Position numbers and translations under genes: made by a program. Positions 9,182 to 37,759 of a stretch of 38,274 nucleotides of DNA are shown here, one piece after another. A model generated the notes under the pieces. The model made no database searches. It saw only the letters and a list, made by a program, of their open reading frames with translations, and had not been told where the DNA came from. The stretch spans positions 1 to 38,274 of the forward strand of contig JABFRE010000093.1 in assembly GCA_013141325.1 (NCBI GenBank). The letters run 5' to 3'. Each line of letters starts with the position of its first letter. Within the stretch, counting starts at the first letter, position 1. Origin of the DNA: Novosphingobium sp. GTDB taxonomy: Bacteria > Pseudomonadota > Alphaproteobacteria > Sphingomonadales > Sphingomonadaceae.

Positions 9182-9200
9182 GTCGCATCATCCCCTTCGT

Positions 9201-10745
9201 GTGGAGCCATCGAGTTTTTCCGTGACTGCCGAACCCGCCTCGACCATCCGGACGCTGGACCACCTGGCCTTGCGCGGCAACGATGCCGCGCCGGCGCTGG
9301 TCTTGCGCGAAGGTATCCTTAGCTACAAGGATTTAAGGGATCGTGTCGCCCGGCTTGCCGGATGGTTGCAGGCGCAGTTGCCGCGGCCGGGCGAGCGGGT
9401 GGCGAGCTGGGCCGCCAAGGGTGAGCTGACCTGTCTGCTGCCGCTTGCGGCAGCGCGGGCCGGTTTGGTCCACGTGCCGGTCAACCCGCTGCTCAAACAC
9501 GCGCAGGTCGCGCATATCCTTGCGGACAGCGGAGCAGGGCTGCTGATCGGCACTCCGGCGCGGCTCGCTTCGCTGCTTCCGGGCGACGTACCGGTTGGCT
9601 GTGCCGTCTGGAGCGAGGGCGATGCCGTGTCGGCAGCATCGGTGACCGCTCCGCTGCACCCTTCTGAAGCCGATCCCGACCAGCTGGCGGCGATCTTCTA
9701 TACGTCGGGATCAACCGGCAAGCCCAAGGGGGTGATGCTGAGCCACGCCAACCTCTGGCTCGGGGCCGAAAGCGTGGCAACTTACCTTGGCCTTCAGCCC
9801 GACGACCGCGCGCTGGCGGTGTTGCCGCTGGCGTTCGACTATGGCCAGAACCAGCTGCTGTCACATTGGTACGCCGGAGCAAGCGCGGTGCCGCTCGACT
9901 ATTTGACGCCGCGCGATGTGGTGAAGGCGGTGGAGCGTCACGACGTGACGACGCTGGCGGCCGTGCCGCCGCTATGGGTGCAGCTGACCGAGCTGGACTG
10001 GCCTGCGGCGGCGGCGAAATCGCTGCGCCGGCTGACCAACAGCGGCGGCGCGCTGACCCCCGATCTGGTGCGGCGCATGCGCGCACTGTTCCCCGCCGCG
10101 CGGCTGTTCGCGATGTACGGCCTGACCGAGGCCTTTCGCTCAACCTTCCTCGACCCGGCGCTGATCGACAGCCATCCGACCTCGATGGGCACGGCGATCC
10201 CTCATGCCGAAATTCTGGTGGTTGACGACAGCGGAGCGGTGACGGCCGATGGCGAGGAGGGGGAGCTGGTTCACTGCGGGCCGCTGGTGGCGCAGGGATA
10301 CTGGCAGGATGCCGTCCGCACCGGTGAGCGCTTCAAACCCGCCCCGGCGGCATCACGCTATGGCGGTACGGCGGTCTGGTCCGGTGACAGGGTGCGGCGC
10401 GACGCCGATGGTCTGCTCTATTTCGTCGGAAGGCGCGACGCGATGATCAAGAGTGCGGGCAACCGCATCAGCCCGCAGGAAATCGAAGAGGCGGCACTGG
10501 CGAGCGGTTTGGTGGCCGAAGCCGTGGCGCTGGGTATTCCCGACGAACGACTGGGGCAGGCCGTGCACCTGATAGTGAGGGCCGCGTTAGGATCTTCAGA
10601 CGCTGAACACGAATTGCCGCGCATCCTTCTGCAAGAGCTGCCAAATTTCATGCAACCGAGAGTCATCCACTGGCGCACAGCGCTGCCGGTTTCGCCCAAC
10701 GGCAAAATCGACCGTAACGGCCTCTATGCGGAGCTGGCTGCGTGA
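9201..10745 (+). CDS. Acyl-CoA ligase (AMP-forming), exosortase A system-associated
   Basis: 514 aa. P-loop IFYTSGSTGKPKGVMLSHANL, GRRDAMIKSAGNRISPQEIE, C-terminal catalytic Lys in PNGKIDRNGL. Confidence 0.92.
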   Translation: MEPSSFSVTAEPASTIRTLDHLALRGNDAAPALVLREGILSYKDLRDRVARLAGWLQAQLPRPGERVASWAAKGELTCLLPLAAARAGLVHVPVNPLLKHAQVAHILADSGAGLLIGTPARLASLLPGDVPVGCAVWSEGDAVSAASVTAPLHPSEADPDQLAAIFYTSGSTGKPKGVMLSHANLWLGAESVATYLGLQPDDRALAVLPLAFDYGQNQLLSHWYAGASAVPLDYLTPRDVVKAVERHDVTTLAAVPPLWVQLTELDWPAAAAKSLRRLTNSGGALTPDLVRRMRALFPAARLFAMYGLTEAFRSTFLDPALIDSHPTSMGTAIPHAEILVVDDSGAVTADGEEGELVHCGPLVAQGYWQDAVRTGERFKPAPAASRYGGTAVWSGDRVRRDADGLLYFVGRRDAMIKSAGNRISPQEIEEAALASGLVAEAVALGIPDERLGQAVHLIVRAALGSSDAEHELPRILLQELPNFMQPRVIHWRTALPVSPNGKIDRNGLYAELAA

Positions 10746-11968
10746 AACCGCTGGGGCCCATTCCACCTGGCTTTGCCGCTATTGACGGCGAACTTGCGAT
10801 TGCTGGCCGCCGGGTGAACGAACTGGTTGCCCAGACCGGGAACACGCCGCTGTTCGTCTATTCGGGCGATCAGGTTCGTAACCGAGTGGCCGAACTGCGC
10901 GCCGCCATGCCGGCGCGGCTGGCGCTGCACTATGCGGTCAAGGCCAATCCCTATGGCCCGCTGCTGGCGCTGATGGATGGATTGGTGGATGGGTTTGACG
11001 TTGCCTCCGGCGGTGAACTTGCGCTGGCGCGCGCAGCCGGAACCGATCCCGCGCGGATCAGCTTTGCCGGCCCCGGCAAGCGCGACGACGAGCTGGAGGC
11101 GGCGATTGCATCCGGCGTGACGCTCAATCTCGAATCCGAAGGCGAGGCTGACCGGGCCTTTGCCATCGCCGATCACCTGGGCGCCGTTCCCCGGTTGGCG
11201 GTGCGGGTCAATCCGGACTTCGACCTCAAAGGCTCGGGGATGAAGATGGGCGGGGGCGCCAAGCCCTTCGGTGTCGATGCTGCCCGGGTTCCCGCGCTGG
11301 CCCGGCGGATCATCGCCAGCGGCGCCCACTGGCAAGGGCTGCACATCTTTGCGGGGAGCCAGTCGCTCGACAGCGAGGCGATTGCCGAAACCCAGGCCGC
11401 GACGTTGGACCTCGCGGCGCAACTGGCCGAAGCGAGCGGCTCGCCGTTGCCGCGCTGCAACTTGGGCGGCGGATTCGGGATTCCCTATTTCCCCGCCGAT
11501 ACTCCGATAGATCTTTCGTTGATCGGCCAGCGGCTCGAGGCTCGCTTCGCGGCCCTGCCGGCTGTGCTGCAGGAAACTCGATTTTGCATTGAACTTGGCC
11601 GCTATCTTGTTGGTGAAGCAGGTGTTTACCTAACCCGCGTGATTGACAGGAAGGAGAGCCACGGCGAGGTCTTTCTGGTGGTTGACGGCGGGCTGCACCA
11701 TCAGCTGGCGGCGAGCGGCAATTTCGGAACCGTCGTGCGCCGCAACTATCCCGTTGCAATCGCGTCGCGATTCGGCGCGCCGGATAGCGAGGAAGTCAGC
11801 GTGGTTGGCTGTCTGTGTACGCCGCTGGACCGGTTGGCGGACAAAGCCGGATTGCCCCGGGCCGAGGTCGGCGATCTGGTCGCGGTGTTCTGTGCCGGGG
11901 CCTATGGCGCCAGCGCCAGTCCGGCCCAATTCCTGGGACACGGCCCGGCATGTGAAATGCTGGTTTAA
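10742..11968 (+). CDS. Pyridoxal-dependent decarboxylase, exosortase A system-associated (Orn/DAP/Arg decarboxylase fold)
   Basis: 408 aa. PLP lysine LHYAVKANPYGPLL, GGGFGIPYF, CLCTPLDRLADK, GAYGASASPAQFLGH. 4-bp overlap with the ligase. Confidence 0.92.
   Translation: MKPLGPIPPGFAAIDGELAIAGRRVNELVAQTGNTPLFVYSGDQVRNRVAELRAAMPARLALHYAVKANPYGPLLALMDGLVDGFDVASGGELALARAAGTDPARISFAGPGKRDDELEAAIASGVTLNLESEGEADRAFAIADHLGAVPRLAVRVNPDFDLKGSGMKMGGGAKPFGVDAARVPALARRIIASGAHWQGLHIFAGSQSLDSEAIAETQAATLDLAAQLAEASGSPLPRCNLGGGFGIPYFPADTPIDLSLIGQRLEARFAALPAVLQETRFCIELGRYLVGEAGVYLTRVIDRKESHGEVFLVVDGGLHHQLAASGNFGTVVRRNYPVAIASRFGAPDSEEVSVVGCLCTPLDRLADKAGLPRAEVGDLVAVFCAGAYGASASPAQFLGHGPACEMLV
11945..11963 (+). promoter_or_regulatory. 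Possible sigma-54 (-24/-12) promoter
   Basis: cCGGCATGtgaaATGCT keeps GG-N10-GC and most of TGGCACG-N4-TTGCW. Lies at the 3' end of the decarboxylase gene, about 190 bp upstream of wza. Confidence 0.3.
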
Positions 11969-12054
11969 CCAATCGCTTTCACCCTGTCCCGCGTTGGGAC
12001 TGCGCCGAACTAACCCCGCCGAAATCCTGAAATTGGGCCAAAGGCTAACGCAAT

Positions 12055-12087
12055 ATTCACCCTTTTTGCCGATAGCGGAAGGTGAAT
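12055..12087. promoter_or_regulatory. Inverted repeat ATTCACC-N19-GGTGAAT upstream of the Wza gene
   Basis: Perfect 7-bp arms at 12055-12061 and 12081-12087 in the only sizeable gap (11969-12153) inside the forward EPS gene run. Confidence 0.35.
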
Positions 12088-12153
12088 TGCCGGGTCGCGG
12101 CGCGGGGTGGGCATCCTCGCGCGGCGGACCGGTACGCGAAAAGGACATGCCCG

Positions 12154-12798
12154 ATGCCGATCGACCGTTTCTCCCGCCTGCTTGCCGGCAGTGCCATGGC
12201 CAGCCTTGCGCTGGGCGGCTGCGCCGGGAGCGCCAACGGACCGCAGCTGCCGCCCGCGTCGTTCGTGGCGATGCAGGAAGGTCCGGGCGAGGAGTACGTG
12301 ATCGGCCCGCTCGACGAGCTGACGATCTTCGTCTGGCGCAATCCCGAACTCGGCGCGAAGGTGCAGGTTCGGCCCGACGGGCGGATCACCACGCCGCTGA
12401 TCACCGATATGCCGGCGGTGGGCAAGACTCCCAAGATGCTGGCCGACGACATCACCCTGCAGCTCTCGCAGTACATCCAGGATCCCTTGGTCTCGGTGAT
12501 CGTCAACAAGTTCGCCGGAACCTTCAGCCAGCAGGTCCGGGTTGTCGGTGCGACCGAAAAACCGGCCTCGCTGCCCTACCGCGCCAACATGACCCTGCTC
12601 GATGCGATGATCGCAGTCGGCGGCCTCAGCGAATTCGCTTCGGGCAACCGGGCCAAGCTGATCCGCTTCGACAAGGAAACCGGCAAGCAAAAGGAATTCG
12701 CGGTGCGTCTGGGCGATCTGCTCAAGAAAGGCGACAGCTCGGCCAATGTCATGCTGATGCCCGGTGACGTGATCATCATCCCCGAAAGTTCGTTCTGA
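12154..12798 (+). CDS. XrtA/PEP-CTERM system exopolysaccharide export protein (Wza-like lipoprotein)
   Basis: 214 aa. Lipobox LALGGC, EEYVIGPLDELTIFVWRNPELGAKVQVRPDGRITTPLI, SLBB region, LMPGDVIIIPESSF. Confidence 0.93.
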   Translation: MPIDRFSRLLAGSAMASLALGGCAGSANGPQLPPASFVAMQEGPGEEYVIGPLDELTIFVWRNPELGAKVQVRPDGRITTPLITDMPAVGKTPKMLADDITLQLSQYIQDPLVSVIVNKFAGTFSQQVRVVGATEKPASLPYRANMTLLDAMIAVGGLSEFASGNRAKLIRFDKETGKQKEFAVRLGDLLKKGDSSANVMLMPGDVIIIPESSF

Positions 12799-12822
12799 GG
12801 AAGGGCGGCCGGGGGCAGATCC

Positions 12823-14340
12823 ATGAACACCATTTTCGACGAACTGCGCGCAGCGATCTTCAGCATCTGGCACCGCCGATGGCTGGCGCTGGCTGTCGCC
12901 TGGGGCGTGTGCCTGCTCGGCTGGTTGATGATCGCGTCGATCCCCAACACCTACGAATCACGTTCGCGGGTTTTCGTCCAGCTCGACGACGTGCTGTCCG
13001 ATGTCACCGGCGTGCCCTCGAACGGCAAGCGCGACATCGACCGGGTGCGCCAGACGCTGACCAGCGCGGTCAATCTTGAAAAGGTGATCCGCGGAACCCC
13101 GCTGAGCCAAGACGTCACGACACCCAAGCAGATGGAAGGCGCCGTGCTGGGTCTGGCCAAGGCGATCAAGGTCGAAAGCCAACAGGAGAACACGTTCGAG
13201 ATTTCGGCGAAGTACGGTGATGGTTCGCGCTCGGACGCCGAAAACGCCAAGATGGCGCAGAGCATCGTCCAGAGGATGATCGACCTCTTCCGGGACGAGA
13301 ACCTTGCCGGAAACCGCGGCGAAATGAACACCTCGCTCGATTTCATGAACCAGCAGCTCGCAACGCGGCAAAAGGAACTCGAACTCGCCGAGCAGAAGCG
13401 CCTGGCTTTCGAAACGCAGAATCCGGATATGGCCCAGGGCAGTCTCTCCGTGATGCAACGGCTCGAGGCGAGCCGCGCCGAACTGCGCGGGATCGACGCC
13501 GATCTGGCCGCCGCCCAAAGCGCGCTGGCGGCGATCAACGGCCAGCTGGCAGGCACCCCCAAGACCTTGCCCGGATCGGGCCCGGTCGGCGGTGCCCGCG
13601 CGGCGCTGGCCCAGGCTCAGGCCGAACTGGCCGGCATGCGCGCCCGCGGCCTGACCGACAACCACCCCGACGTGATTGCCGCGCGTAACCAGGTCAACGC
13701 TCTGCGGCCGGCTGCGGCCAGTGAAGGCGGACCCGGCGGCATGCCCAATCCGGCTTACAGCTCGCTCGAATCGATCCGCGCGGATCGCCAGGCCAATGTT
13801 CAGGCGCTCAGCGCCCGGCGCGCCATGGTTCAGGGCGATCTCAGCCGCATTACCTCGCAGCAGATCACCAATCCGCAGGTCGCCGCCGAGCAGCAGCGCA
13901 TCAACCGCGACTACGACGTGCTCAAGCAGCAGTACGACAAGTTGCTGCAGGATCGCGAGGAGCTGCGCCTGCGCGGCCAGGTCCAGACCGAACACAACGC
14001 GGTCAAGTTCCAGGTCGTCGATCCGCCGACGACCCCGCGCGGGCCAATCTCGCCAAACCGTCCGTTCCTGCTGTTCGGCGTGCTGGTGGCCGGGCTGGGC
14101 GCCGGAGTTGCTGCGGCCTTTGCGATCAGCCAGCTGCGCTCGACCTTTTCGACCACCTCCAAACTCGAATCCGCGCTCGGTCTGCCGGTTCTGGGGGCGA
14201 TCAGCGCCACCTTGACCGATGCCGGGCGCGATCTGCGGCGCAAACGGCTCCGGCTGTTCTACGCGGCCAGCGGCGCCCTGTGCGGGCTGTTCGTACTGCT
14301 GCTGACGGTGGAATTCATCCAGCGCGGCATGGTGGCCTGA
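12823..14340 (+). CDS. XrtA system polysaccharide chain length determinant (Wzc N-terminal-like, no kinase domain)
   Basis: 505 aa. N-terminal Wzz-type TM segment, long coiled coil, PPTTPRGPISPNRPFLLFGVLVAGLGAGV. Confidence 0.93.
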   Translation: MNTIFDELRAAIFSIWHRRWLALAVAWGVCLLGWLMIASIPNTYESRSRVFVQLDDVLSDVTGVPSNGKRDIDRVRQTLTSAVNLEKVIRGTPLSQDVTTPKQMEGAVLGLAKAIKVESQQENTFEISAKYGDGSRSDAENAKMAQSIVQRMIDLFRDENLAGNRGEMNTSLDFMNQQLATRQKELELAEQKRLAFETQNPDMAQGSLSVMQRLEASRAELRGIDADLAAAQSALAAINGQLAGTPKTLPGSGPVGGARAALAQAQAELAGMRARGLTDNHPDVIAARNQVNALRPAAASEGGPGGMPNPAYSSLESIRADRQANVQALSARRAMVQGDLSRITSQQITNPQVAAEQQRINRDYDVLKQQYDKLLQDREELRLRGQVQTEHNAVKFQVVDPPTTPRGPISPNRPFLLFGVLVAGLGAGVAAAFAISQLRSTFSTTSKLESALGLPVLGAISATLTDAGRDLRRKRLRLFYAASGALCGLFVLLLTVEFIQRGMVA

Positions 14341-14350
14341 GGGGACGGCA

Positions 14351-15433
14351 ATGACCAAACACAGCAAGATCCCCGTTCCGCCCCGCAAGGGTGAGGAAGC
14401 AGCCAGGTCCAAGGAGGGCGGCACGCTGATCGAGCGGGTCGTGCGCAACTACGATCTGGTTCAGCTCACGTCCGCGCCAATCCCGGCGGATCTGATTCCC
14501 CCGGCGTCGAAACGCCGCCGCTATCGCCGTGCCGACGACACGATCGAAGAGGCGGAGGTAACGCCGGTCAAGCCGGCCGCCGCGGCGCCGATCGACCAGC
14601 CTGCCACCGCGCCGCCGCCTGCCGTGATCGAAGGTGAAGTGGTGTCCGCCGCGGCTTCGGCACCGCCTGTACCGGCAGTGCCGCCAGTCCGCTTCAAAGG
14701 TGCGGTTCACGCCGTGCGCCGCCAGCACCTGCGCGATCAGGGCCTGATCGTGCCCGAAGCAAGCGTCACCGGGCTGCTCGAGGAGTTCCGCATCGTCAAG
14801 CGCCAGGTGCTGCTTCAGGCATCGCAGCTGGCCCAGCAGGGCATGGGCCCGGCGGCGCAGCGGGTGCTGATCTGCTCGCCCCATCCGGGCGAGGGCAAGA
14901 CTTACACCTCGGTCAATCTGGCTCTGGCGATCGCTGCCGAAAAGGAAAGTGAAGTCCTGCTGGTCGATGCCGATTTCGCCAAGCCGTCTGTGCTTTCGTC
15001 GCTGGGGCTGCCCGGCGGTCCGGGGTTGATGGATGCGCTGTCCAACCCGGATATCGATGTTGCCGATTGCGTTATCGGAACCGACATTTCCGGGTTGTGG
15101 GTACTGCCGGCCGGCAATGCCACGACATCGGATTCGGAATTCCTGTCCAGCTCGCGCACCCGGCAGGTGCTCGACCGGCTGACCCAGGGTGCGGCCAACC
15201 GCATCGTGATTTTCGATTCACCGCCGGCTCTGGCGGCATCGCCTGCTGCGGAACTGGCCAAATACGTCGGCCAGGCCGTGCTCGTGGCCCGCGCCGACAA
15301 GACCGGTCAGGGCGCGCTGGAAGATGCCATCTCGCTGCTGTCGGCCTGCCCGAACATTCAACTGTTGCTCAATGCCGTCCATTTCAGTCCGAGCGGTCGC
15401 CGCTTCGGATCATATTACGGATACGGGGGATGA
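14351..15433 (+). CDS. XrtA-associated tyrosine autokinase (CpsD/CapB-type BY-kinase)
   Basis: 360 aa. Walker A CSPHPGEGKTYTSVNLALAIA, Walker A' VLLVDADFAKPS, Tyr-rich tail GSYYGYGG. Confidence 0.9.
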   Translation: MTKHSKIPVPPRKGEEAARSKEGGTLIERVVRNYDLVQLTSAPIPADLIPPASKRRRYRRADDTIEEAEVTPVKPAAAAPIDQPATAPPPAVIEGEVVSAAASAPPVPAVPPVRFKGAVHAVRRQHLRDQGLIVPEASVTGLLEEFRIVKRQVLLQASQLAQQGMGPAAQRVLICSPHPGEGKTYTSVNLALAIAAEKESEVLLVDADFAKPSVLSSLGLPGGPGLMDALSNPDIDVADCVIGTDISGLWVLPAGNATTSDSEFLSSSRTRQVLDRLTQGAANRIVIFDSPPALAASPAAELAKYVGQAVLVARADKTGQGALEDAISLLSACPNIQLLLNAVHFSPSGRRFGSYYGYGG

Positions 15434-17139
15434 CCATGAAGTCCTGCCTGCTTACACGATTTGCCGCACTGTCCGCCATCCTGGCGGCCTGTTCGCCGCT
15501 CGCACTCCACGCCCAGGAATTGCCCTACGACGACGTCGCGGGAGAAGGCGATTCCGGCGATGTCTCGGATTCCACCGGTGTCGGTCGCGGTCCGCGGGTC
15601 ACGGTGAGCCCCTATATCGAGGCAAGCCAGGTGCTGCTGGCCGAACTTTCGCCGGGCAGCGAAACGTTGACCTATTCGAGCCTCGCCGCCGGGATCGACG
15701 CCAGCTTTGCCGGCCGCAACAATCAGGGATCGGTCTCGGTTCGCTATGAGCGCCGGTTCGGTTGGGGCAAGAAGGCAGCGGACAGCGATACGCTTTCGGG
15801 CATTGCCCGGTTCCAGACCGCCGTCGTTCCGCGCACGCTTAACTTCGAAGTGGGTGCCCTTGCGGCGCGCAGCAGTGTCGAGAACAACGGATCGACCGTT
15901 TCCGGACTGGAATTCGACGACAGCGCCACGCAGGTCTATTCGGCCTATGCCGGGCCCAGCCTGGCCACCCGGATGGGTGATGTTGCGGTCAACGGTCACT
16001 ATTACTTCGGCTACACTCGCGTCGATTCGCCCAATGCGATCGCGGTGGTGCCAGGTCAGAACCCGGTCGATGTGCTCGACGATGCAACCCGGCATAACGC
16101 CGAGCTTCATTTCGGCACCAAAGCCGGCGAGCCGTTGCCGGTCGGAATTGGTGCCGGGGTGGGCTGGAACCGCGAAGATATCTCCAATCTCGATCAACGC
16201 ATCAACGATTTTCACGCCCGCGGCGATGTCGCCGTGCCGCTGACCAGCGATCTGCAGCTGGTTGCCGGGGTCGGCTGGGAAAAGGTTGAGGTTTCGAGCC
16301 GCGATGCGCTGCGCGATACCGTCACGGGCCTGCCGGTGCTCGACAGCAACGGGCGCTATGTCACGGACAGCTCGGCCCCGCGCCAGATCGCCTTCGAAAG
16401 TGAAGGCCTGATCTGGGATGCCGGGGTCATGTGGCGGCCCAGCAAGCGTACCGTACTCGAGGCGCATGTTGCCCGCCGGTACGGCTACACCAACTACTAT
16501 GGCAGCTTCGCCTATGCACCCAGCGCGCGCACTTCCATCAACATTTCGGCCTATGACAGCCTGACCAGCTTCGGCGGGATGCTGAACAAGGCCTTGGCCA
16601 ATCTGCCAACCGATTTCGAGGCTGTCCGCAACCCGCTGAACGGCGATCTGGGCGGCTGTGTTGCCGCGCGGGGCAGTGTTGCCTCCGGACAGAGTGGCTG
16701 CCTGATCGGCGTGCTGGGTTCGGTCCGGTCTGCAGTGTTCCGCGGGCGCGGGGTGATGGCCTCTGTGGGCTACACCGGTTCGCGCTTCGGTTATGGAGTG
16801 GGGGCGGGCTACGACCGCCGCCGCTTCATCGCGGTACCTGGAACAGTGCTGGGTGTGACCAACCTGACGATCGACGAGAACATCTGGTTGGCCGCCTATC
16901 TCAATGGCAAGCTCGACGCGAATTCGAGCATTGGCCTGGGCGCTTGGGCCAACTGGTACCAAAGCGGAGACGCCTTGGCTGGCAACAGCAACGCAGTGGG
17001 CGCTACCGCGTCCTACAACCGGTCGATCACCAGCCGTCTCAGCGCGACGGCCGCGCTGGGCATCACTGGGGTCAACCGCGAAGCGCTTGCCGATATCTGG
17101 ACGGCGCAGGCCTTGGCCGGCGTGCGGTATTCGTTCTGA
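15430..17139 (+). CDS. XrtA locus outer-membrane beta-barrel protein (TIGR03016-like)
   Basis: 569 aa. Signal peptide MTMKSCLLTRFAALSAILAACSPLALHAQ, alternating beta-strand pattern, C-terminal aromatic LAGVRYSF. ATGA overlap with the kinase gene. Confidence 0.85.
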   Translation: MTMKSCLLTRFAALSAILAACSPLALHAQELPYDDVAGEGDSGDVSDSTGVGRGPRVTVSPYIEASQVLLAELSPGSETLTYSSLAAGIDASFAGRNNQGSVSVRYERRFGWGKKAADSDTLSGIARFQTAVVPRTLNFEVGALAARSSVENNGSTVSGLEFDDSATQVYSAYAGPSLATRMGDVAVNGHYYFGYTRVDSPNAIAVVPGQNPVDVLDDATRHNAELHFGTKAGEPLPVGIGAGVGWNREDISNLDQRINDFHARGDVAVPLTSDLQLVAGVGWEKVEVSSRDALRDTVTGLPVLDSNGRYVTDSSAPRQIAFESEGLIWDAGVMWRPSKRTVLEAHVARRYGYTNYYGSFAYAPSARTSINISAYDSLTSFGGMLNKALANLPTDFEAVRNPLNGDLGGCVAARGSVASGQSGCLIGVLGSVRSAVFRGRGVMASVGYTGSRFGYGVGAGYDRRRFIAVPGTVLGVTNLTIDENIWLAAYLNGKLDANSSIGLGAWANWYQSGDALAGNSNAVGATASYNRSITSRLSATAALGITGVNREALADIWTAQALAGVRYSF

Positions 17140-17159
17140 AGCCTGACGGAGTTAGAAGG

Positions 17160-18326
17160 ATGTTCAACGACTACTACGGGCTGTCAGGACGGGCGTTTCA
17201 GCTCACTCCGGATCCGGCGTTCTATTTTGAGAGCCTGACCCATCGCAAGGCCCTGTCCTACCTGTCCTACGGACTGGCACAGGGCGAAGGCTTCGTGGTT
17301 ATCACAGGCGAGGTCGGAGCGGGCAAATCCACTCTGGTCGCGCACCTGATGGCGACGATCGATCCAGCCAGGCTGACCGCCGCGCAGATCGTCACCTCAA
17401 AGCTTGATGCCGAGGAACTGGTTCATGTCGTCGCCCAGGCGTTCGGACTGATCGTCGAAGGGCACGACAAGGCCAGCGCGCTCGGCGCGATCGAGGCTTT
17501 CCTGCACGACGAGGCCCGGGCCGGCCGCCGCTGCCTGCTGGTGGTCGATGAATCGCAAAACCTGCTGCTCGACGCCCTTGAAGAGCTGCGCATGCTCTCC
17601 AACTTCCAGCTGGGCGCGCACCCGCTGTTGCAGACCCTGCTGCTGGGTCAGCCGGAATTTCGCGAAACGATCCAGGCCCATCCGCAGCTCGAACAGCTCC
17701 GCCAGCGCGTGATCGCGGCGCACCACCTTGAAGCGATGGAGCGCGACGAGGTTCAGCCCTATATCGAACACCGCCTGAAATGCGTGGGCTGGGACGGCAA
17801 TCCGGCGTTCGATCAGCGCGTTTTCGCCGAGCTGTTCGAAGCTTCGGGCGGCGTGCCGCGGAGAATCAACCAGATCTGCAACCGGCTGATGCTGCTCGGT
17901 GCGGTCGAACAGCGTACCCGGATCGACGGTGCAATGCTGAGTCAGGTACTCGAAGAGCTTGAGCTCGACGGTACGCTTCAGCTCAAGAAGATCGAACGCA
18001 CTCCCGATCCAGCCGCTCATGCGGTTGCGGCGGCGCAAACGCCGGCGGACGGCGTTGCGCTGGCCCACGTCCAGACCCTGCTCGGCGAGCGCGACGCGCA
18101 GATCGCCGAACTGCAGCAGGCGGTGATCGAGCTCGCCAACGAACGCGAAGCCAGCGCTGGCGCGCCGCTCGGCGATGGCACGCGCGACGAAGCGATGCGG
18201 CTGCTTGAGGCCAAGTTCGGTGCGCTGGAAGCCAAGATGCTCGAGCAGGAGCGGACCATCCGCCATACGCTGACCATGCTCATCGAGTGGATTGAAGCCG
18301 ACGACGCCAGCCGCGCTGCCGCGTGA
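17160..18326 (+). CDS. XrtA-associated AAA ATPase (TIGR03015-like, ExeA-like)
   Basis: 388 aa. MFNDYYGLSGRAFQLTPDPAFYFES, Walker A ITGEVGAGKSTL, Walker B LLVVDESQNL, long coiled C-terminus. Confidence 0.92.
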   Translation: MFNDYYGLSGRAFQLTPDPAFYFESLTHRKALSYLSYGLAQGEGFVVITGEVGAGKSTLVAHLMATIDPARLTAAQIVTSKLDAEELVHVVAQAFGLIVEGHDKASALGAIEAFLHDEARAGRRCLLVVDESQNLLLDALEELRMLSNFQLGAHPLLQTLLLGQPEFRETIQAHPQLEQLRQRVIAAHHLEAMERDEVQPYIEHRLKCVGWDGNPAFDQRVFAELFEASGGVPRRINQICNRLMLLGAVEQRTRIDGAMLSQVLEELELDGTLQLKKIERTPDPAAHAVAAAQTPADGVALAHVQTLLGERDAQIAELQQAVIELANEREASAGAPLGDGTRDEAMRLLEAKFGALEAKMLEQERTIRHTLTMLIEWIEADDASRAAA

Positions 18327-18350
18327 CCTGACGGACAGGCGAGGCTTAGC

Positions 18351-19223
18351 GTGGATCATCCCCAACTCGTCAACGGCCTGTCGGTCGACGTTGAGGACTG
18401 GTTCCAGGTCGGGGCCTTCGAAGGCGTGATCGAACGCGACAGCTGGGACACTCTCGGCTCGAGGGTGGAGCGCAATTGCGATTCTATCCTCGCCATGTTT
18501 GCCGCCGCCGACGTCAAGGCGACATTTTTTACCCTGGGCTGGGTGGCTCAGCGCCACGGCGCCTTGATGCGGCGGATCGTCGCTGAAGGGCACGAGCTGG
18601 CCAGTCACGGCTGGGACCATGCCCGGGTCTTCCGGATGTCGCGTGAGGAATTCGCCGCCGATGTCGAGCGCAGCCGCAAGGCGCTGGAAGACGCGGCAGG
18701 GGTGGCGATCACCGGCTACCGAGCACCCAGCTTCTCGATCGATCAGCGCACGCCATGGGCCTATATGGTGCTGGCCGAACAGGGCTTTGTCTATAGCTCC
18801 AGCGTGGCGCCCATCACCCACGATCACTATGGCTGGCGCGAGGCGCCGCGGTTTGCGTTCAAGCCGCTGCCATGGTCGTCGCTCGTCGAAATACCGGTCA
18901 CGACCGCCCATTTTGCCGGACGCCGACTGGCGGCGGGAGGCGGGGGCTTCTTCCGGGTCTTGCCCTACGGTTTTTCGCGCTGGGCGATCCGCCAGGTCAA
19001 TACCGAGGATCACCGTCCGGCCGTGTTCTATTTCCATCCCTGGGAAATCGATCCCCAGCAGCCACGCGTCACCGGCGCATCGCTGCGCTCAAAGGCTCGG
19101 CACTATACGAACCTTGGCGTGATGGCGGAAAAGCTCGGGCAATTGATCCGCGAATTCGCCTGGGGTCGGATGGACGTGCTCGCCCTGCGCGAAGCCGAAC
19201 GCGCCGTGGAGCTGGCAGCATGA
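18351..19223 (+). CDS. XrtA-associated polysaccharide deacetylase (DUF3473 type)
   Basis: 290 aa, GTG start. LSVDVEDWFQVGAFEGVI, KATFFTLGWVAQRHGALMRRIVAEGHELASHGWDH, YFHPWEIDPQQPR. Confidence 0.93.
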   Translation: MDHPQLVNGLSVDVEDWFQVGAFEGVIERDSWDTLGSRVERNCDSILAMFAAADVKATFFTLGWVAQRHGALMRRIVAEGHELASHGWDHARVFRMSREEFAADVERSRKALEDAAGVAITGYRAPSFSIDQRTPWAYMVLAEQGFVYSSSVAPITHDHYGWREAPRFAFKPLPWSSLVEIPVTTAHFAGRRLAAGGGGFFRVLPYGFSRWAIRQVNTEDHRPAVFYFHPWEIDPQQPRVTGASLRSKARHYTNLGVMAEKLGQLIREFAWGRMDVLALREAERAVELAA

Positions 19224-20296
19224 ACGCGCCGTTCCGCCCGGCGTCGCTGACCCTGCGGCAGGCCGATCTGGCCCAGCCCGACGAAGCCCTGCGGCTGGAG
19301 GCGTTTGTTGCCGACCATCCGGCAGGCACGCCGTTTCACCGCCCGGCCTGGCTGCATGCGACCGCGCGCGGCACAGGCAATCGGGCGCTGGCACTGGTGG
19401 CAGAACGGGCGGGGTCGCTGATCGGCTACCTGCCGCTGCTGGACGTCCGATCGCCGCTGTTCGGGCGGGTGTTGGTCGCAAGTGGATTTGGCGTCGGCGG
19501 CGGGGTGCTGAGCGAGGATGCGGCTGCGACCGCTGCGCTGTTCATCGGTGCCGAAGAACTGGCCAGCCGCAACTCTTGTCCGGCGATCGAGCTGCGCGGC
19601 GGACCGCTGCCCGAAGCGCGGAGCGGCTGGACCATTCGTCACGATTCGCACTGCGGCTTTGTCTGCGATCTGGCCATCGACGATGAGGCACAGCTTGCCG
19701 CGATCCCGCGCAAGCAGCGCGCCGAAGTGCGCAAGGGCCTGGCCAACGACCTGACGGTGGAGACCGGATCGGGCCTGGACGACCGCGCGGCGCACTACGC
19801 GGTCTACGCCCAGAGCGTCCGCAATCTGGGAACGCCGGTGTTCCCCCGGCAGCTGTTTTCCGAAGTGCTCGACGCCTTTGGCGTGGACGCCGACATTCTG
19901 ACTGTCCGGCACCGCGGGCAACCGGTCGCCAGCGTGCTCTCGCTGTACCACGCAGGCGCGGTGATGCCGTACTGGGGCGGGGGAACCCATGACGCACGCC
20001 GCCTGCGCGCGAACGACCGGATGTATTACGAACTGATGCTCCATGCCCGGCGGCGGGGCTGCACCCGTTTCGATTTCGGACGGTCGAAGACGGACAGTGG
20101 TGCCTATGATTTCAAACGCAACTGGGGATTCGAGCCTATGCCGCTGGGCTACGCCAGTTGGGCAGCCGACGGCGCGCCGCTGCGCGATGCCGATCCCACC
20201 AGCTCCCGCCACAGCGCCAAGATCGCGCTATGGAAGCGCTTGCCCTTGCCGCTGGCCAACGCGCTTGGCCCCTGGATCGCACGGGGGCTGGGATGA
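19220..20296 (+). CDS. FemAB family protein, XrtA/PEP-CTERM system-associated
   Basis: 358 aa. IPRKQRAEVRKGLANDL, YWGGGTHDARRLRANDRMYYELMLHARRRGCTRFDFGRSKTDSGAYDFKRNWGFEP. ATGA overlap. Confidence 0.92.
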   Translation: MNAPFRPASLTLRQADLAQPDEALRLEAFVADHPAGTPFHRPAWLHATARGTGNRALALVAERAGSLIGYLPLLDVRSPLFGRVLVASGFGVGGGVLSEDAAATAALFIGAEELASRNSCPAIELRGGPLPEARSGWTIRHDSHCGFVCDLAIDDEAQLAAIPRKQRAEVRKGLANDLTVETGSGLDDRAAHYAVYAQSVRNLGTPVFPRQLFSEVLDAFGVDADILTVRHRGQPVASVLSLYHAGAVMPYWGGGTHDARRLRANDRMYYELMLHARRRGCTRFDFGRSKTDSGAYDFKRNWGFEPMPLGYASWAADGAPLRDADPTSSRHSAKIALWKRLPLPLANALGPWIARGLG

Positions 20297-21531
20297 GCAA
20301 CGAGATCCTGTTCCTCTCGCACCGGATGCCGTTCCCGCCCGACCGCGGCGACAAGATCCGTTCGCACCACATCCTGAAGCGTCTGGCGATGATCGCCCCG
20401 ATCCATATCGCCACCTTTGCCGACGACGAACGCGAGATCGCCGAAGAGGTGGAGCTGGCCACCCTGGCGCGCAGTTATCGGCTGGTCCGCCGGGTCAAGC
20501 CGCTGATCCTGGCCGGAATGCAGGCGCTCCTCACCCGCCAGCCGGCCAGCCTGCCCGCGTTCTACAGTGCCGAAATATCGGACTATGTCGCCGCAGTGCT
20601 GCGCGAACAGCCGATCTCTGCGATCTACGCCTTTTCCGGACAGATGGGCCAATACATTCCGGAAGACTTCAAGGGGCGGGTGATCTTCGATTTCGTCGAT
20701 GTCGATTCGGCCAAATTCGAAGCCTATGCCAAGCGTGACCGCGGCGTCACGGGCTGGATCAACGCCCGCGAAGCGCGGCTGCTGGCGCTGGAAGAGTCGC
20801 GGATAGCACGCCGCGCCGATATCAGCCTGTTCGTCTCATCCGAAGAAGCCGCGCTGTTCCGGGCGCGGCTGAGCCCGGAGGATCTTGCCGCCGCTGACGT
20901 CCGGACTCTGCGCAACGGTATCGACAGCCGCCTGTTCGATCCCGCGTTGGTTGGGGCTGAGCCGGCGCTGCTGGCCTGCACCGGACCGCGGATCATCTTT
21001 GCCGGACAAATGGACTACGCTCCCAATGTTGAAGCGGCGCTGCGGGTGATCGAGCGGTTGCTGCCGGCAATCCGCGAAACCTTGCCCAAGGCGACATTCC
21101 ACGTCGTCGGACGCAATCCCGCTGAAGAGCTGATGGACCACCACGGCAAGCACGGCGTGTTCGTGTGGGGCGGAGTGGACGATATCCGAACCTATCTGGC
21201 CGCTGCAGATCTGGCGTTGATCCCCCTGACGATCGCGCGCGGAGTGCAGAACAAGGTGCTGGAGGCTATGGCCATGAATTTGCCGGTGGTGCTGACCAGT
21301 GCGGCAGCCACCGGGATCGGCGCCACCGACGGCAAGCATTTTGCCGTAGCCGACAGCGACGCCAATCTGCTCGAGCGGGCTACGGCCCTGCTCAGCCATC
21401 CGCGTCAGGGCTGGAATCTTGGGGCAGAAGCACGGCGCCACGTCGTCGAAACGATGAGCTGGCAGGCAACGCTGGCGCCGCTGGCCGAACTGGTCGGCAT
21501 CGGCGCCGCGCGGGTCCGCGATGCCGCCTGA
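20293..21531 (+). CDS. Glycosyltransferase, XrtA/PEP-CTERM associated (TIGR03087-like, GT4 fold)
   Basis: 412 aa. EILFLSHRMPFPPDRGDKIRSHHILKRLA, IIFAGQMDYAPNVEAALRVIERLLPAIRE, PLTIARGVQNKVLEAMAMNLPVV. Confidence 0.92.
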   Translation: MSNEILFLSHRMPFPPDRGDKIRSHHILKRLAMIAPIHIATFADDEREIAEEVELATLARSYRLVRRVKPLILAGMQALLTRQPASLPAFYSAEISDYVAAVLREQPISAIYAFSGQMGQYIPEDFKGRVIFDFVDVDSAKFEAYAKRDRGVTGWINAREARLLALEESRIARRADISLFVSSEEAALFRARLSPEDLAAADVRTLRNGIDSRLFDPALVGAEPALLACTGPRIIFAGQMDYAPNVEAALRVIERLLPAIRETLPKATFHVVGRNPAEELMDHHGKHGVFVWGGVDDIRTYLAAADLALIPLTIARGVQNKVLEAMAMNLPVVLTSAAATGIGATDGKHFAVADSDANLLERATALLSHPRQGWNLGAEARRHVVETMSWQATLAPLAELVGIGAARVRDAA

Positions 21532-23077
21532 CGCGGTCGCTGGGGAAAGCACATTGCCGCCGGCCGGGCTCGACCCTGTCTGGCGCCGCGCTGCTTGGCA
21601 GGTTGCGCTGGTCTGGCTGACGCTGATCGCGGTGTTTTTCCGTGACTGGCTGGCAATGGCCGATCAATGGTGGAACAGTTCGACCTACAACCACATCCTG
21701 CTAGTTCCGGTGATTGTCGGTTGGCTGGTCTGGCAGCGCCGAGCCGAAGTTGTGCAACTGGCGCCGCTTGGCTGGCGGCCGGGACTGGTGCCGTTCGCTC
21801 TGTCGGTCGCGGTGTGGTTGTTGGGGGCGGTGTCCGGCTTCGATCTGCTGCGCCAGGCAGGGACGGTGGCGATGCTGCCTGCCAGCGCGCTGATTCTGCT
21901 GGGTCCCAAATCTGGGACCGCCCTGTTGTTTCCCTTTGCCTACATGGTTTTCCTGGTTCCGTTTGGCGACGAATTCGTACCCGCGCTGCAAACGATCACT
22001 GCGGCGCTGACCATCGCCTTGGTGCGCGTCAGCGGGATTCCGGCCCGGATAGAGGGGGTATTCATCGATACGCCCGCCGGTCTGTTCGAAGTCGCCGAAG
22101 CCTGCTCCGGAGTAAAATTCCTGATCGCGATGATCGCGCTGGGGGTGCTGGTGGCCCATGTCGGGTTCCGAAGCTGGAACCGCCGCGCCGTGTTCATGGC
22201 GCTGTGCGTAGTTGCCCCGGTGGTGGCCAACGGCCTGCGTGCCTTCGGCACGGTGCTGGCCGCGCAATACGTCGGGGCAGAGCGTGCCGGCGGGATTGAT
22301 CACCTGATCTACGGCTGGATCTTCTTCGCGCTGGTGATCGCGGCGGTGCTGGCGGTGTCTTGGCGATACTTCGATCGGGCCATCGACGCGCCGTTCATCG
22401 ATGCATCGGCCATCGCCGGCTCGCCCTGGCTGACCCGGCTGGAGCGATTTTCGCTGCGCCCGCTGGTTGCCGGGCTGGCGATGGCTGCCGTGGTTGTTGC
22501 CGGGCAGGGCTGGGCGCGCGCCGCCGACCGGCTCGTCGCGCCGTTGCCGACACGGATCAGCCTGCCAGAGGTACCCGGCTGGCACCGGATCGACTACGCC
22601 CCCCGTTTTGCCTGGCAGCCGCGCGCGGCGGGGTCCGATCATCACCTGCTGGGCCGCTATGCCGACCAACAGGGGCACGAAGTCGATGTGTTCTTCGCGC
22701 TCTACGCGACCCAGTCCGAAGGCAAGGAGGCCGGCGGCTTTGGCGAAGGTGCGCTGCGCCCCGACAGCGGCTGGTCATGGCAGGGTGCGGGGCCGGCACT
22801 GGCTGAGGGCAGGAGCGAGCGCCTGCTCTCCGCCGAGAGGACGGGGCGGCTGGCGCAGACCTATTACCGCACCGGGGATGTGCTGACGGGAAGCAACCTG
22901 AGGCTCAAGGTTGCCACCATCGCCAATCGGATAGTCCTGCGCCGGGCCACCACTACCACGCTGATCCTGTCGGCCGAGACTCGCCGGGGCCGGTTGCCCG
23001 AAGCCGATCTGGAGGCGTTCCGCGCTGCAATCGGACCGATCGGTCCGTGGATGGACCGCATGGCTTCCGGCCGCTAG
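21521..23077 (+). CDS. xrtA: Exosortase A fused to a C-terminal EpsI domain
   Basis: 518 aa multi-TM. Catalytic Cys in EVAEACSGVKFLIAM, Arg in VANGLRAFGTV, His in GGIDHLIYGWIFF. EpsI-like tail after about residue 300. Confidence 0.94.
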   Translation: MPPDAVAGESTLPPAGLDPVWRRAAWQVALVWLTLIAVFFRDWLAMADQWWNSSTYNHILLVPVIVGWLVWQRRAEVVQLAPLGWRPGLVPFALSVAVWLLGAVSGFDLLRQAGTVAMLPASALILLGPKSGTALLFPFAYMVFLVPFGDEFVPALQTITAALTIALVRVSGIPARIEGVFIDTPAGLFEVAEACSGVKFLIAMIALGVLVAHVGFRSWNRRAVFMALCVVAPVVANGLRAFGTVLAAQYVGAERAGGIDHLIYGWIFFALVIAAVLAVSWRYFDRAIDAPFIDASAIAGSPWLTRLERFSLRPLVAGLAMAAVVVAGQGWARAADRLVAPLPTRISLPEVPGWHRIDYAPRFAWQPRAAGSDHHLLGRYADQQGHEVDVFFALYATQSEGKEAGGFGEGALRPDSGWSWQGAGPALAEGRSERLLSAERTGRLAQTYYRTGDVLTGSNLRLKVATIANRIVLRRATTTTLILSAETRRGRLPEADLEAFRAAIGPIGPWMDRMASGR

Positions 23078-23087
23078 GAGCGACGCC

Positions 23088-24986
23088 ATGTGCGGAATTG
23101 CCGGTATCTTTCATCTCGCGACCCCAAAGCCGGTCGATCCGCTGCGGGTCGAGCGGATGTGCGATGCGATCGCGCACCGCGGGCCCGATGGCCACGGGGT
23201 CTGGACCGCCCACGGCGTCGGGTTGGGTCACCGCCGTCTGTCGATTATCGACGTTGCCGGATCGCCGCAGCCCATGGCCTCAAGCGACGGGCGGGCCATG
23301 CTGGTCTTCAACGGCGAGATCTACAATTTCCGTGAACTGCGCGAGGAGCTGCGCGGAGCGGGAGCGGAATTTTACACCGACGGCGACAGCGAAGTGATCC
23401 TTGCCGCGTGGCAGCGCTGGGGCCCCGGCTGCCTGCCGCGCCTGCACGGCATGTTCGCTTTCGCGATCTACGATCTGGGCGCGCGCACGTTGTTTCTGGC
23501 GCGGGACCGTCTGGGCGTGAAGCCGCTGTTCTACGCCCCGCTGAGCGATGGTAGCCTGGCCTTCGGCTCGGAGCTCAAGGCGCTGCTTGCCCATCCGCTG
23601 CTGCGCCGCGAGGTCGATCCGCTGGCGATCGAGGACTATCTGGCGTGGGGCTACGTGCCTGATCACCGCTCGATCCTGCAGGGGGTGCAAAAGCTGCCGG
23701 CCGGTCACGCACTGCTGCTGCGCCACGGTGCCCCGCTCCCCGCGCCGTCGCAGTGGTGGGACGTGTCGTTTGCAGAACGCCGCAGCGGCCGTGCCGCCGA
23801 TCTGGAGGTGGAGCTGCTGCATCTGCTGCGCCAGGCGGTCACCTCGCGGATGGTCTCGGACGTGCCGCTGGGAGCATTCCTGTCGGGCGGGGTCGACAGT
23901 TCCAGTGTAGTTGCACTGATGGCCGAGGCCAGCTGCAATCCGGTCAAGACCTGCTCGATCGGTTTCGATATCGCTGCGCTGGATGAAAGCAGCTACGCCG
24001 CCCAGGTTGCCGAACTCTTTGCCACCGACCACCGCAGCCGGGTGGTCTCCCCCGACGATTTCGGCGCGGTCGATCAGCTTGCGGCGATGTTCGACGAACC
24101 CTTTGCCGATGCTTCGGCACTGCCCACGTGGCGGGTCAGCCAGCTGGCCCGCGAAACGGTGACCGTGGCGCTGTCGGGCGACGGCGCCGACGAGGCCTTT
24201 GCCGGATACCGCCGTCACGCCTTTCAGCACGGCGAAGACCGGATGCGCTCGATCCTGCCGCAAGCGCTGCGCGGGCCGGTGTTCGGCGCGCTGGGCGCGA
24301 TCTATCCCAAGGCCGACTGGGCCCCGCGCCCGTTGCGCGCCAAGACCACCCTGCTTGCGCTCGCCGGAACCAGCGAGGCTGGCTATGCCCGGGCGATCGG
24401 CATCGTTCCGCCCGAGCTTCGCGAACCGCTCTATTCGCCCGCGTTCCTGCGCCTGCGCGGCGATTACCGCGCAGAACAGCCGTTCGAAGCGCTGATGCGC
24501 CGGGCGCCGGCCCGTTCGGGGCTGGACCGCGCGCAATATGCCGATCTCAAGTTCTGGTTGCCCGGCGATATCCTGACCAAGGTCGATCGCACCAGCATGG
24601 CGGTAAGCCTTGAGGCGCGCGAGCCGCTGCTCGATCACCGTCTGGTCGAATTCGCCGCCAGCCTCCCCGAAGGCCTGCGGCTGAAGCGCGGCGAGGGCAA
24701 GTGGCTGCTCAAGAAGACCATGCGCCGCTACCTGCCGGAGGATATCCTGTTCCGGCAGAAGCAGGGCTTCGTCACCCCGATCGCACAGTGGTTCCGCGGA
24801 CCTCTGGCCGAGACCGCGCGCTTGATCGGGACCAGCACAGCGCTCGCCCGCACCGGCTGGTTCGATACCCATCGCCTGTCAGCCGTCGCCGAGGCGCATA
24901 TTGCCGGGCGATCCGACAACGGCCGCCTGCTGTGGCAGCTGCTGATGCTGGAGCGTTCGCTGGCCCGTTTGGGGATCGCCGCCTGA
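23088..24986 (+). CDS. XrtA/PEP-CTERM system amidotransferase (asparagine synthase-like)
   Basis: 632 aa. N-terminal Ntn Cys MCGIAGIF, GxxGxG RGPDGHGVW, SGGVDSSSVVAL PPi loop, LSGDGADEAFAGYRRH. Confidence 0.95.
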   Translation: MCGIAGIFHLATPKPVDPLRVERMCDAIAHRGPDGHGVWTAHGVGLGHRRLSIIDVAGSPQPMASSDGRAMLVFNGEIYNFRELREELRGAGAEFYTDGDSEVILAAWQRWGPGCLPRLHGMFAFAIYDLGARTLFLARDRLGVKPLFYAPLSDGSLAFGSELKALLAHPLLRREVDPLAIEDYLAWGYVPDHRSILQGVQKLPAGHALLLRHGAPLPAPSQWWDVSFAERRSGRAADLEVELLHLLRQAVTSRMVSDVPLGAFLSGGVDSSSVVALMAEASCNPVKTCSIGFDIAALDESSYAAQVAELFATDHRSRVVSPDDFGAVDQLAAMFDEPFADASALPTWRVSQLARETVTVALSGDGADEAFAGYRRHAFQHGEDRMRSILPQALRGPVFGALGAIYPKADWAPRPLRAKTTLLALAGTSEAGYARAIGIVPPELREPLYSPAFLRLRGDYRAEQPFEALMRRAPARSGLDRAQYADLKFWLPGDILTKVDRTSMAVSLEAREPLLDHRLVEFAASLPEGLRLKRGEGKWLLKKTMRRYLPEDILFRQKQGFVTPIAQWFRGPLAETARLIGTSTALARTGWFDTHRLSAVAEAHIAGRSDNGRLLWQLLMLERSLARLGIAA

Positions 24987-35309: not shown

Positions 35310-35779
35310 GCGCTGGTCGGCTTGCGGATCGTCCCGGAGAAGGCCGCCACGATTGCGTCTTCGCCCTGTTCCACAATCCCCCGCAGGAACACCAGCCTGC
35401 GGGTTTCCTTCAGCACCTCGGTCACCGCGTCGCAGGGTATCCCCGGCTTGCCCGCGCCGATGAACTGGACGTTGAGATCCAGCGTAACGGCCGTTCCCGC
35501 CTCGATAATTCCCAGCATGCGCGAACAGGCGAACAGGCCGATGTCGATTAGCGCCATCACGGTACCGCCATGGATGTTGTTGCCAAGGTTGGTGTGGCGG
35601 TGTTCCGGGAACATCCGCAACCGCGCCTTGCCGTCCGGATCGGCGCGTACCAGCAGCTTGGGAAACATCCAGCTGTTGAACCGTGTGGAATCGCTCAGCT
35701 GCCAGGTATACCAGCCCGGATTCTCGGGATCGGGCTCGCTGCGAAAACCCCGGTCGTCGCCGTTGGCGCCCTCGCTCAA
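35306..35779 (-). CDS. PaaI-family thioesterase (hotdog fold)
   Basis: 157 aa. [43 protein letters not shown]. 4-bp overlaps on both sides. Confidence 0.88.
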
Positions 35780-36558
35780 ACGTGCCGCTCCGCCTGCATC
35801 TTCTTGATCTCGGCGATCGCGCGCGCCGGGCTGAGGCCCTTGGGGCAGACGTTGGCGCAGTTCATGATCGTGTGGCAGCGGTAGAGCCGGAAGGGATCTT
35901 CCAGTTCGTCCAGCCGTTCACCCGTCATCTCGTCGCGGCTGTCGGCCAGCCAGCGGTAGGCCTGAAGCAGGATCGCGGGGCCAAGGAACTTGTCGCTGTT
36001 CCACCAATAGCTGGGGCACGAGGTGGAGCAGCACGCGCACAGGATGCATTCGTAGAGGCCGTCCAGCTTCTCGCGTTGTTCGGGCGATTGCAGCCGCTCT
36101 TTGCCGGACGGCGTGGTGCTTACGGTTTGCAGCCAGGGCCGGATCGAGGCGTACTGCGCGTAGAAGTGCGTGAAATCCGGGACCAGATCCTTGACCACTT
36201 CCATGTGCGGCAGCGGGGTGATGCGAATATCGCCCTTCAGGTCTTCGATCGCGGTGGTGCAGGCCAGGCCGTTACGCCCGTTCATGTTCATCGCGCAGGA
36301 TCCGCAGATCCCTTCGCGGCACGAACGGCGGAAGGTCAGGGTCGGGTCCGTTTCGGACTTCATCTTGATCAGCGCGTCGAGCACCATCGGCCCGCAGGTG
36401 TCGAGATCGATCTCGAAGGTGTCATAGCGCGGGTTCTCACCCGAGTCCGGATCGTAGCGATACACCGTGAATGTCTTCACGCGAGCGGCACCGGTGGCAG
36501 GATGGCGCCGCCCCTTGCCCGAGATCTTGCTGTTTGCGGGAAGAGTGAAGGTCGCCAT
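35776..36558 (-). CDS. sdhB: Succinate dehydrogenase iron-sulfur subunit
   Basis: 260 aa. 2Fe-2[23 protein letters not shown], 4Fe-4[18 protein letters not shown], 3Fe-4[18 protein letters not shown]. Confidence 0.97.
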
Positions 36559-36606
36559 GTCGATCCCTGTCTTGCTGCTGGCCGGTGAGCCGCCTTGCGG
36601 CCCTCT

Positions 36607-37077
36607 CTAGCGATTCAACGAGCCGGGGCAAGCCGAACCGGCGGGAAAATTGTCGCTCGCGGCGTCCGGGCCGCCGCGGCGGTTGCGGGCTCCGATAACC
36701 AGTGCCAGCAGCATGGCGCAGGCGGTGGCAGCCAACAGGCCTTCCAGCGCCGCAATGGAGGCAATCAGGCCGCCCAGCGCCAGTCCATGCGCCACCACCG
36801 CAATCAGGCCGGCAGCCGCCAGGATCAGTGGATAGTGTCGGCGGCTGCGCAGCGCGACCCACACCAGCGCCGCGAAGGCCGCGAGATCGACTGCGGCGAC
36901 AAGCTTGGGGCGGTCGGCGGCATCGCTATTGAGCGCCAGCAGCACGGCGGCAAGCACGCGCGCAGCAACGATTGCCAGGCACGTCCAGCTGGCTGCTTCG
37001 GTCTGGCGGCGCAGCACCAGTGCAACGCCAGGCAGCAGCATCAGAATGACCAGGTTGCTTGCCCCCGGCATGGTCAC
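36607..37077 (-). CDS. Small polytopic membrane protein of unknown function
   Basis: 156 aa with about 4-5 hydrophobic segments (NLVILMLLPGVALVL, IVAARVLAAVLLAL, LVAAVDLAAFAALVWVAL, LILAAAGLIAVVAHGLALGGLIASIAALEGLLAATACAMLLALVIGA). 4-bp overlap with the LuxR-type gene. Confidence 0.7.
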   Translation of the reverse strand: MTMPGASNLVILMLLPGVALVLRRQTEAASWTCLAIVAARVLAAVLLALNSDAADRPKLVAAVDLAAFAALVWVALRSRRHYPLILAAAGLIAVVAHGLALGGLIASIAALEGLLAATACAMLLALVIGARNRRGGPDAASDNFPAGSACPGSLNR

Positions 37078-37607
37078 TGAAACGCGGCAAGAAGTTGAAC
37101 GAGCGCCTGCAATGCCGCCAGACTGAGTACCGCAAGGGCCATGATGCCCAGCGCAATAACCACTATCGCAATGAGCCGAGCTCGGGTCCGCGACGGTCCG
37201 TCGAGCAGCGCAGTGAGTGCTGTGAAGAAGGGGGTGGAGGGGTACGACCCGAAAGGAACGGACGCCTGCGACAGCGCGGTAGAAACCTCGGCACCCTCCG
37301 CTTCGGATTGCTGACCGACCAAGCCATCCGATTGAAGCTGGATTGACTTACCTGTAAGTGAATTACTGGCAGGGATGGTCAGCACCACGGTGCTCATGCG
37401 CCTGTAAATGCGGGCAATTTGCGTGCGAGGCAGACCGCCCAGGCGTTGCCGCACAACCTCAATCCGCTGGTTCACGGCGGATTCGGAAATCGCCAATTTC
37501 CGGGCGATTTCCTTACTGGTCATGCCTTCCGAAATCAGCGACAGAACCTCCCGCTGCTTCTCGGTTAAGCCGTCAAGGGCGGTCATCTGCTCGTTGATAT
37601 CGTCCAT
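37074..37607 (-). CDS. LuxR/GerE-type HTH protein with C-terminal transmembrane helix
   Basis: 177 aa. HTH LTEKQREVLSLISEGMTSKEIARKLAISESAVNQRIEVVRQRLGGLPRTQIARIYRRM; C-terminal LIAIVVIALGIMALAVLSLAALQALVQLL. Confidence 0.87.
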   Translation of the reverse strand: MDDINEQMTALDGLTEKQREVLSLISEGMTSKEIARKLAISESAVNQRIEVVRQRLGGLPRTQIARIYRRMSTVVLTIPASNSLTGKSIQLQSDGLVGQQSEAEGAEVSTALSQASVPFGSYPSTPFFTALTALLDGPSRTRARLIAIVVIALGIMALAVLSLAALQALVQLLAAFQ

Positions 37608-37759
37608 GGCCAGTCAACGTTAGTCGCCCGGCGGGCTGGTAACAAATATATTCTCGGATGGGCCTGACGGTCGCCTTTGGCGCGGAATTGCTTTCCCACG
37701 CGAGACGGCGGAGGCATGATGCAGGCATCGTGAGAGGGGCTCTGGACGAAGGAATCGGG

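Follow-up and report, generated by a model that had tools for sequence, protein, structure and literature searches.

A predicted membrane-anchored LuxR-type regulator and its polytopic partner in Novosphingobium, a probable reduced form of a larger sphingomonad cassette

Transmembrane transcription regulators (TTRs) such as ToxR, TcpP and CadC are known and widespread, and according to the main text of a survey of these proteins the single-pass forms are the commonest (PMC10269533); LuxR or GerE is unmentioned in that main text. In the LytTR Regulatory Systems (HdrRM, BrsRM) one operon encodes a regulator together with a polytopic membrane protein, repeats are located just upstream of the -35 region, and positive autoregulation has been experimentally shown (PMC6193735). 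In HigX, a TM-LytTR regulator of Caulobacter, four TM helices at the N-terminus are joined to LytTR, and there is no separate partner (PMC13384398).

We have analysed a gene pair, luxA and mem, from Novosphingobium sp., carried by a stretch of 38,274 nucleotides (the whole stretch is referred to as the window). The luxA protein resembles the TTRs in carrying a DNA-binding domain and a TM helix (called by hydropathy only) in one polypeptide, and differs from them by a GerE-type HTH, a C-terminal anchor, the lack of a periplasmic domain and a polytopic partner. An earlier note on this DNA had proposed a one-component membrane-tethered LuxR-type switch with a polytopic partner, the partner being a possible sensor or anti-activator. 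A tethered regulator with a partner of this kind fits all findings given below; what the note missed is the larger cassette and the fast-evolving, repeatedly lost nature of the partner. The genes used throughout are:

37074..37607, minus strand: luxA, LuxR-HTH-TM protein of 177 aa with an ATG start
Parts of the luxA protein: HTH, residues 13-66; variable linker, about 73-136; juxtamembrane G137/R144; TM, about 145-163; C-terminal tail, no more than 14 aa
36607..37077, minus strand: mem, five-TM membrane protein, 156 aa from GTG or 154 aa from the ATG at 37071
35776..36558, minus strand: sdhB, succinate dehydrogenase iron-sulfur subunit, the syntenic neighbour

The claim of an N-terminal GerE/LuxR HTH in the 177-aa protein (open reading frame 37607-37074, minus strand) holds, as residues 13-66 match GerE in Pfam with 42.6 bits against a cut-off of 23.5. 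The same HTH scores equally as Sigma70_r4_2, with 42.9 bits. The solved structures nearest to a profile of the luxA family are the DNA-binding domains of GerE, RhlR, DesR and NarL. Domain-family searches including Pfam returned no receiver, no autoinducer domain and no second domain at all, which agrees with the earlier description. Likewise, a single C-terminal TM with almost no periplasmic tail had been described, and by Kyte-Doolittle hydropathy only, one hydrophobic segment is found at residues 145-163, followed by 14 residues. The positive-inside pattern would place the HTH in the cytoplasm. The linker is indeed variable, but it had been called Ser/Gln-rich and is Ser/Thr-rich instead (S 11 and T 8 of 69 residues). 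The equivalent of R144, where the TM meets the cytoplasm, is occupied by Arg in 129 of about 134 aligned LuxR-TM proteins; Pro/Asp/Gly are kept ahead of it, and small residues inside the TM helix. Since the TM and juxtamembrane part is conserved while the linker drifts, this segment is suggested to have a role beyond anchoring.

The partner was said to be a multi-TM protein of no recognised family, and both halves of this statement stand. An AlphaFold2 model with five helices was obtained with confidence (pLDDT 86, pTM 0.76), and searches with the protein gave no Pfam match above the cut-off and no NCBIfam, PHROG or PADLOC match. A fold search of the model against PDB gave no match at E <= 0.001, and a mem profile against PDB gave weak matches only. 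Positions D64, R80, P83 and H97 are conserved. The window mem matches the mem-family profile with an E-value of 5.9e-28, this profile including the window mem itself. A 4 bp overlap between the two genes had been reported, which is correct for the GTG start of mem; an in-frame ATG two codons on is equally plausible and leaves a 2-nt gap. The spacing of luxA and mem among several orthologues is -4, 3 or 4.

Upstream of luxA two elements were located:

37636..37654, minus strand: candidate operator, promoter-proximal element AGAATATATTTGTTACCAG, overlapping the -35 region; orthologue consensus CAAATNNATTTG-TTACCAG
37618..37623, minus strand: probable -10 region CTAACG, 10 nt before the ATG

At the luxA promoter the palindrome CAAATNNATTTG has been conserved: 10 of 15 luxA orthologues match 14-17 of 17 positions and shuffled upstream regions rarely reach 13; the consensus was derived from the same sequences that were scored, and the match statistic is therefore optimistic. 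In the aligned orthologues inspected, a -10-like CTA is found 14-17 nt before the ATG. This closeness to the start codon suggests that the luxA mRNA is leaderless or nearly so. A sigma-70 consensus scan detected no promoter, so the promoter is read from conservation only. The palindrome may be simply a part of that promoter. A search of the window's genome with the 17-base core gave no second match within 3 mismatches. A wider regulon was considered and rejected, as the core matches only at luxA and a looser 19-base pattern occurs near the control level.

Our preferred explanation, which we hold to be rather probable, is that luxA encodes a membrane-tethered, autoregulating LuxR-type regulator which is modulated or tuned by mem as an accessory membrane protein. 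The protein would be anchored to the inner membrane through its C-terminal helix, leaving the HTH in the cytoplasm on a flexible tether. From there the HTH would bind the palindrome at its own promoter; this autoregulation is proposed because the LytTR repeats just upstream of -35 go together with positive autoregulation (PMC6193735). The five-TM mem protein would pack against the conserved TM/juxtamembrane segment of the regulator and would thereby modulate the readiness of the HTH for dimerisation or DNA binding. Like the inhibitory membrane proteins of the LytTR Regulatory Systems, mem would most likely restrain the regulator until it is relieved by a cue from the membrane or the cytoplasm.

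The occurrence of the pair was followed with a mem profile built from ten mem proteins, which matches in 67 of 121 Sphingomonadaceae genomes and 53 of 96 genera. Sixty mem loci, picked mainly from the top of the ranked matches, were opened; genes were called by a codon-model heuristic and TM segments by a Kyte-Doolittle heuristic. A LuxR-HTH gene is found directly upstream of mem on the same strand in 59 of the 60, the sole exception (L200) having mem by itself. The pair is more than a local oddity. The earlier note also called similar HTH-only proteins common in sphingomonads; the 59 loci bear this out, together with the full-length relatives of the regulator that were found, several of which have weak relatives of mem beside them. 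Every cassette LuxR protein with an assignable start has a C-terminal TM, mostly with a short tail; one of them (L101) carries a second hydrophobic segment. Between the LuxR gene and mem, 55 of the 60 loci have a gene of about 110 aa, whose product is predicted to form a two-helix hairpin (pLDDT 87). The hairpin model gave no match in a PDB fold search at E <= 0.001, and its profile gave weak PDB matches only, the best being a proteasomal-ATPase coiled coil with an E-value of 0.0067.

Among 289 members of the class drawn from outside Sphingomonadaceae, the hairpin was found in 2 genomes of one other family, one of them with the full lux-mid-mem set. Two loci of another family of the class (L239, L241) have no LuxR gene; two thioesterase-like genes come first, then two tandem hairpin genes and then mem genes. 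Judging from these loci, the closer association may be that of the hairpin with mem. Elsewhere, four tandem 5-TM gene copies follow a lux and a hairpin gene (L195, G176:C1:2914000-2924000), and in some genomes a divergent histidine kinase (and LuxR response regulator) adjoins the cassette (L050, L051, L053, L054, L152). A reading of the cassette as a defence system was rejected, as PADLOC gave HTH-level matches only, to CARF/Csa3/CasR. What emerges is a defined gene set that roughly half of the Sphingomonadaceae genomes sampled possess, often multicopy and also on conjugative plasmids, around a previously unannotated pair.

Of the 60 opened loci, 34 have a RadC-family JAMM gene downstream of mem and 27 a winged-helix gene. 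A RadC search of 55 genomes gave 97 matches, 35 of them within 2 kb of mem where about 0.08 would be expected by chance; these 35 are spread over 31 of the 45 mem-bearing genomes. Most genomes have one further high-scoring RadC elsewhere. The strict JAMM motif is retained in 55 of 65. Independently annotated plasmids of named strains show the same order, HTH - hypothetical - hypothetical - JAB, in Sphingopyxis sp. DBS4 and Sphingobium sp. MI1205, and in Novosphingobium sp. ES2-1 the HTH and two hypothetical genes are followed by a winged helix instead of JAB. Full cassettes with a JAB-domain gene are carried by a mobilizable and a conjugative plasmid (L245, L247); in L246 a winged-helix gene takes the place of the JAB-domain gene. 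One plasmid cassette is flanked by a VapC toxin-antitoxin pair on one side and a strawberry-notch-like gene on the other.

The RadC and JAMM counts, together with the conserved juxtamembrane segment, are what speaks for regulated proteolysis, i.e. storage of the HTH domain at the membrane and its release by a cut near that segment, with the RadC-type JAMM protein involved in full cassettes. To our knowledge it is unproven that RadC proteins act as peptidases, and their cellular role is still obscure. The cassette RadC is missing from the window and from close to half of the cassettes. A cut by RadC at the juxtamembrane motif was rejected as a candidate because the motif class does not go with RadC presence. 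For the pair we therefore regard proteolysis as unlikely. A broader proposal, which we put forward tentatively and think possible but less than probable, is that sphingomonads possess a multi-part membrane-tethered LuxR cassette in which the RadC-family protein would be a working part, acting as peptidase or scaffold on the tethered regulator or its partners. If so, a RadC-family protein would gain a testable cellular role, and the window would present the stripped-down core. The strong linkage to a RadC paralogue is in any case a way into the study of RadC proteins.

The window's genome has no match to the hairpin gene, and its single RadC is on another contig, so that no cassette RadC is present; as this genome is only 90% complete, both absences carry that caveat. 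We take the window pair to be a reduced form, or remnant, of the larger sphingomonad cassette, judging from gene content. Its history was traced at the sdhB locus. The order luxA-mem-luxB-sdhB, with two LuxR-TM genes flanking mem, is found in six relatives (L061-L063, L065-L067). Both luxA and mem are kept in the window and in L038, L058, L069 and L070, luxA alone in L037, L057 and L060, and luxB alone in L043, L045, L074 and others. In the tree the luxB proteins are well separated (98/100), and the window falls inside a well-supported luxA group with L057, L058, L037 and L060 (100/99); deeper luxA grouping is weaker. By the simplest history, luxA-mem-luxB was probably the ancestral order at the Novosphingobium sdhB locus, and the other arrangements arose by loss. 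On this comparison mem appears to have been lost repeatedly while luxA persists.

Close pairs gave dN/dS values of 0.14-0.15 for luxA and 0.25-0.39 for mem, and more distant pairs 0.17-0.38 and 0.20-0.65, respectively; a single mem value of 0.94 against the window was obtained where divergence is near saturation. This means that luxA is constrained by purifying selection, and that mem is under looser selection, yet non-neutral in close pairs. With orthologues, purifying selection and a conserved gene order, the association of luxA and mem is not due to chance.

The linkage to sdhB is of another kind, owing to one further element:

36604..36634, minus strand: sdhB promoter-like block CTTGCCCC...CGCTAGAGAG, lying across the 3' end of mem and encoding the last mem residues

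Upstream of sdhB this block is conserved in relatives that carry mem as well as in those that lack it. Because sdhB thus has its own promoter-like block regardless of mem, its linkage to luxA-mem is positional, and the case for sdhB as operon member or target is weakened. In this genome sdhCD is on another contig (C168), apart from sdhB. Elsewhere in the window, a probable exosortase/PEP-CTERM-type exopolysaccharide gene cluster was recognised at 8183-24986 from reading translations.

The missing hairpin gene, the several losses of mem, its higher dN/dS and a C-terminus overprinted on the sdhB promoter block could together mean decay in the window's lineage, with mem a relic that is losing its coding constraint, and the regulator left alone, perhaps sensing the membrane via its own TM helix. 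We give this a low probability, as mem retains its open reading frame, five helices and D64/R80/P83/H97, and its dN/dS in close pairs is well below 1. The weakest alternative, a sigma-70 region-4-like HTH in a tethered sigma/anti-sigma remnant touching RNA polymerase or -35 DNA rather than a classical LuxR-type protein, is suggested by the equal Pfam score, by a plasmid homologue annotated 'RNA polymerase subunit sigma-70' and by the overlap of the conserved element with the -35 region, and is improbable since luxA is without sigma region 2, the family profile is nearest to GerE/NarL-type structures and another family member scores GerE above sigma.

For a tethered regulator tuned by mem, the equal score still counts against the explanation, as does the loss of mem in many relatives, since a strict anti-activator should resist loss. 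An accessory role of mem would account for its repeated loss where the regulator is retained, and the loss and fast evolution of mem argue against it as an obligatory sensor. The pair would offer a compact model for the action of a membrane-based transcription factor without a sensory domain.

Membrane-tethered regulators are thus already known, and the LuxR type with a RadC-containing cassette is undescribed as far as we have found: in the literature searched, mostly non-subscription papers, we found no description of LuxR-TM cassettes in sphingomonads, of the accompanying hairpin and 5-TM proteins or of a connection with RadC. Compared with the lux-mid-mem cassette as defined here, the window has the LuxR-TM gene directly upstream of mem and lacks the hairpin gene between them. 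The RadC / UPF0758 JAMM gene of other cassettes is a paralogue peculiar to the cassette, present in addition to the single high-scoring RadC, and the window has none. With the LuxR/NarL-type response and quorum regulators luxA shares the GerE HTH, but its family is without a receiver or autoinducer domain and has the recognition-helix signature SAVNQRI / HTVDQRI.

The likeness to ToxR/CadC proposed earlier extends to topology only. Those proteins have an OmpR-type winged HTH and a periplasmic sensory domain, whereas luxA has a GerE/sigma-r4 HTH and at most 14 residues after the TM, and its partner mem is not single-pass. With the LytTR Regulatory Systems it shares the polytopic membrane protein beside the regulator gene, as seen from gene order, co-transcription being likely. 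In those systems the regulators are mostly soluble, with a LytTR domain and direct repeats, while luxA has a LuxR-type HTH that would itself be TM-anchored, and a palindrome; inhibition by the membrane protein is known there and is a proposal for mem. HigX, finally, is alphaproteobacterial, membrane-associated, without a periplasmic domain and with a low-complexity linker; the luxA protein would share these traits and differs from HigX by a single C-terminal TM and a separate partner, mem.
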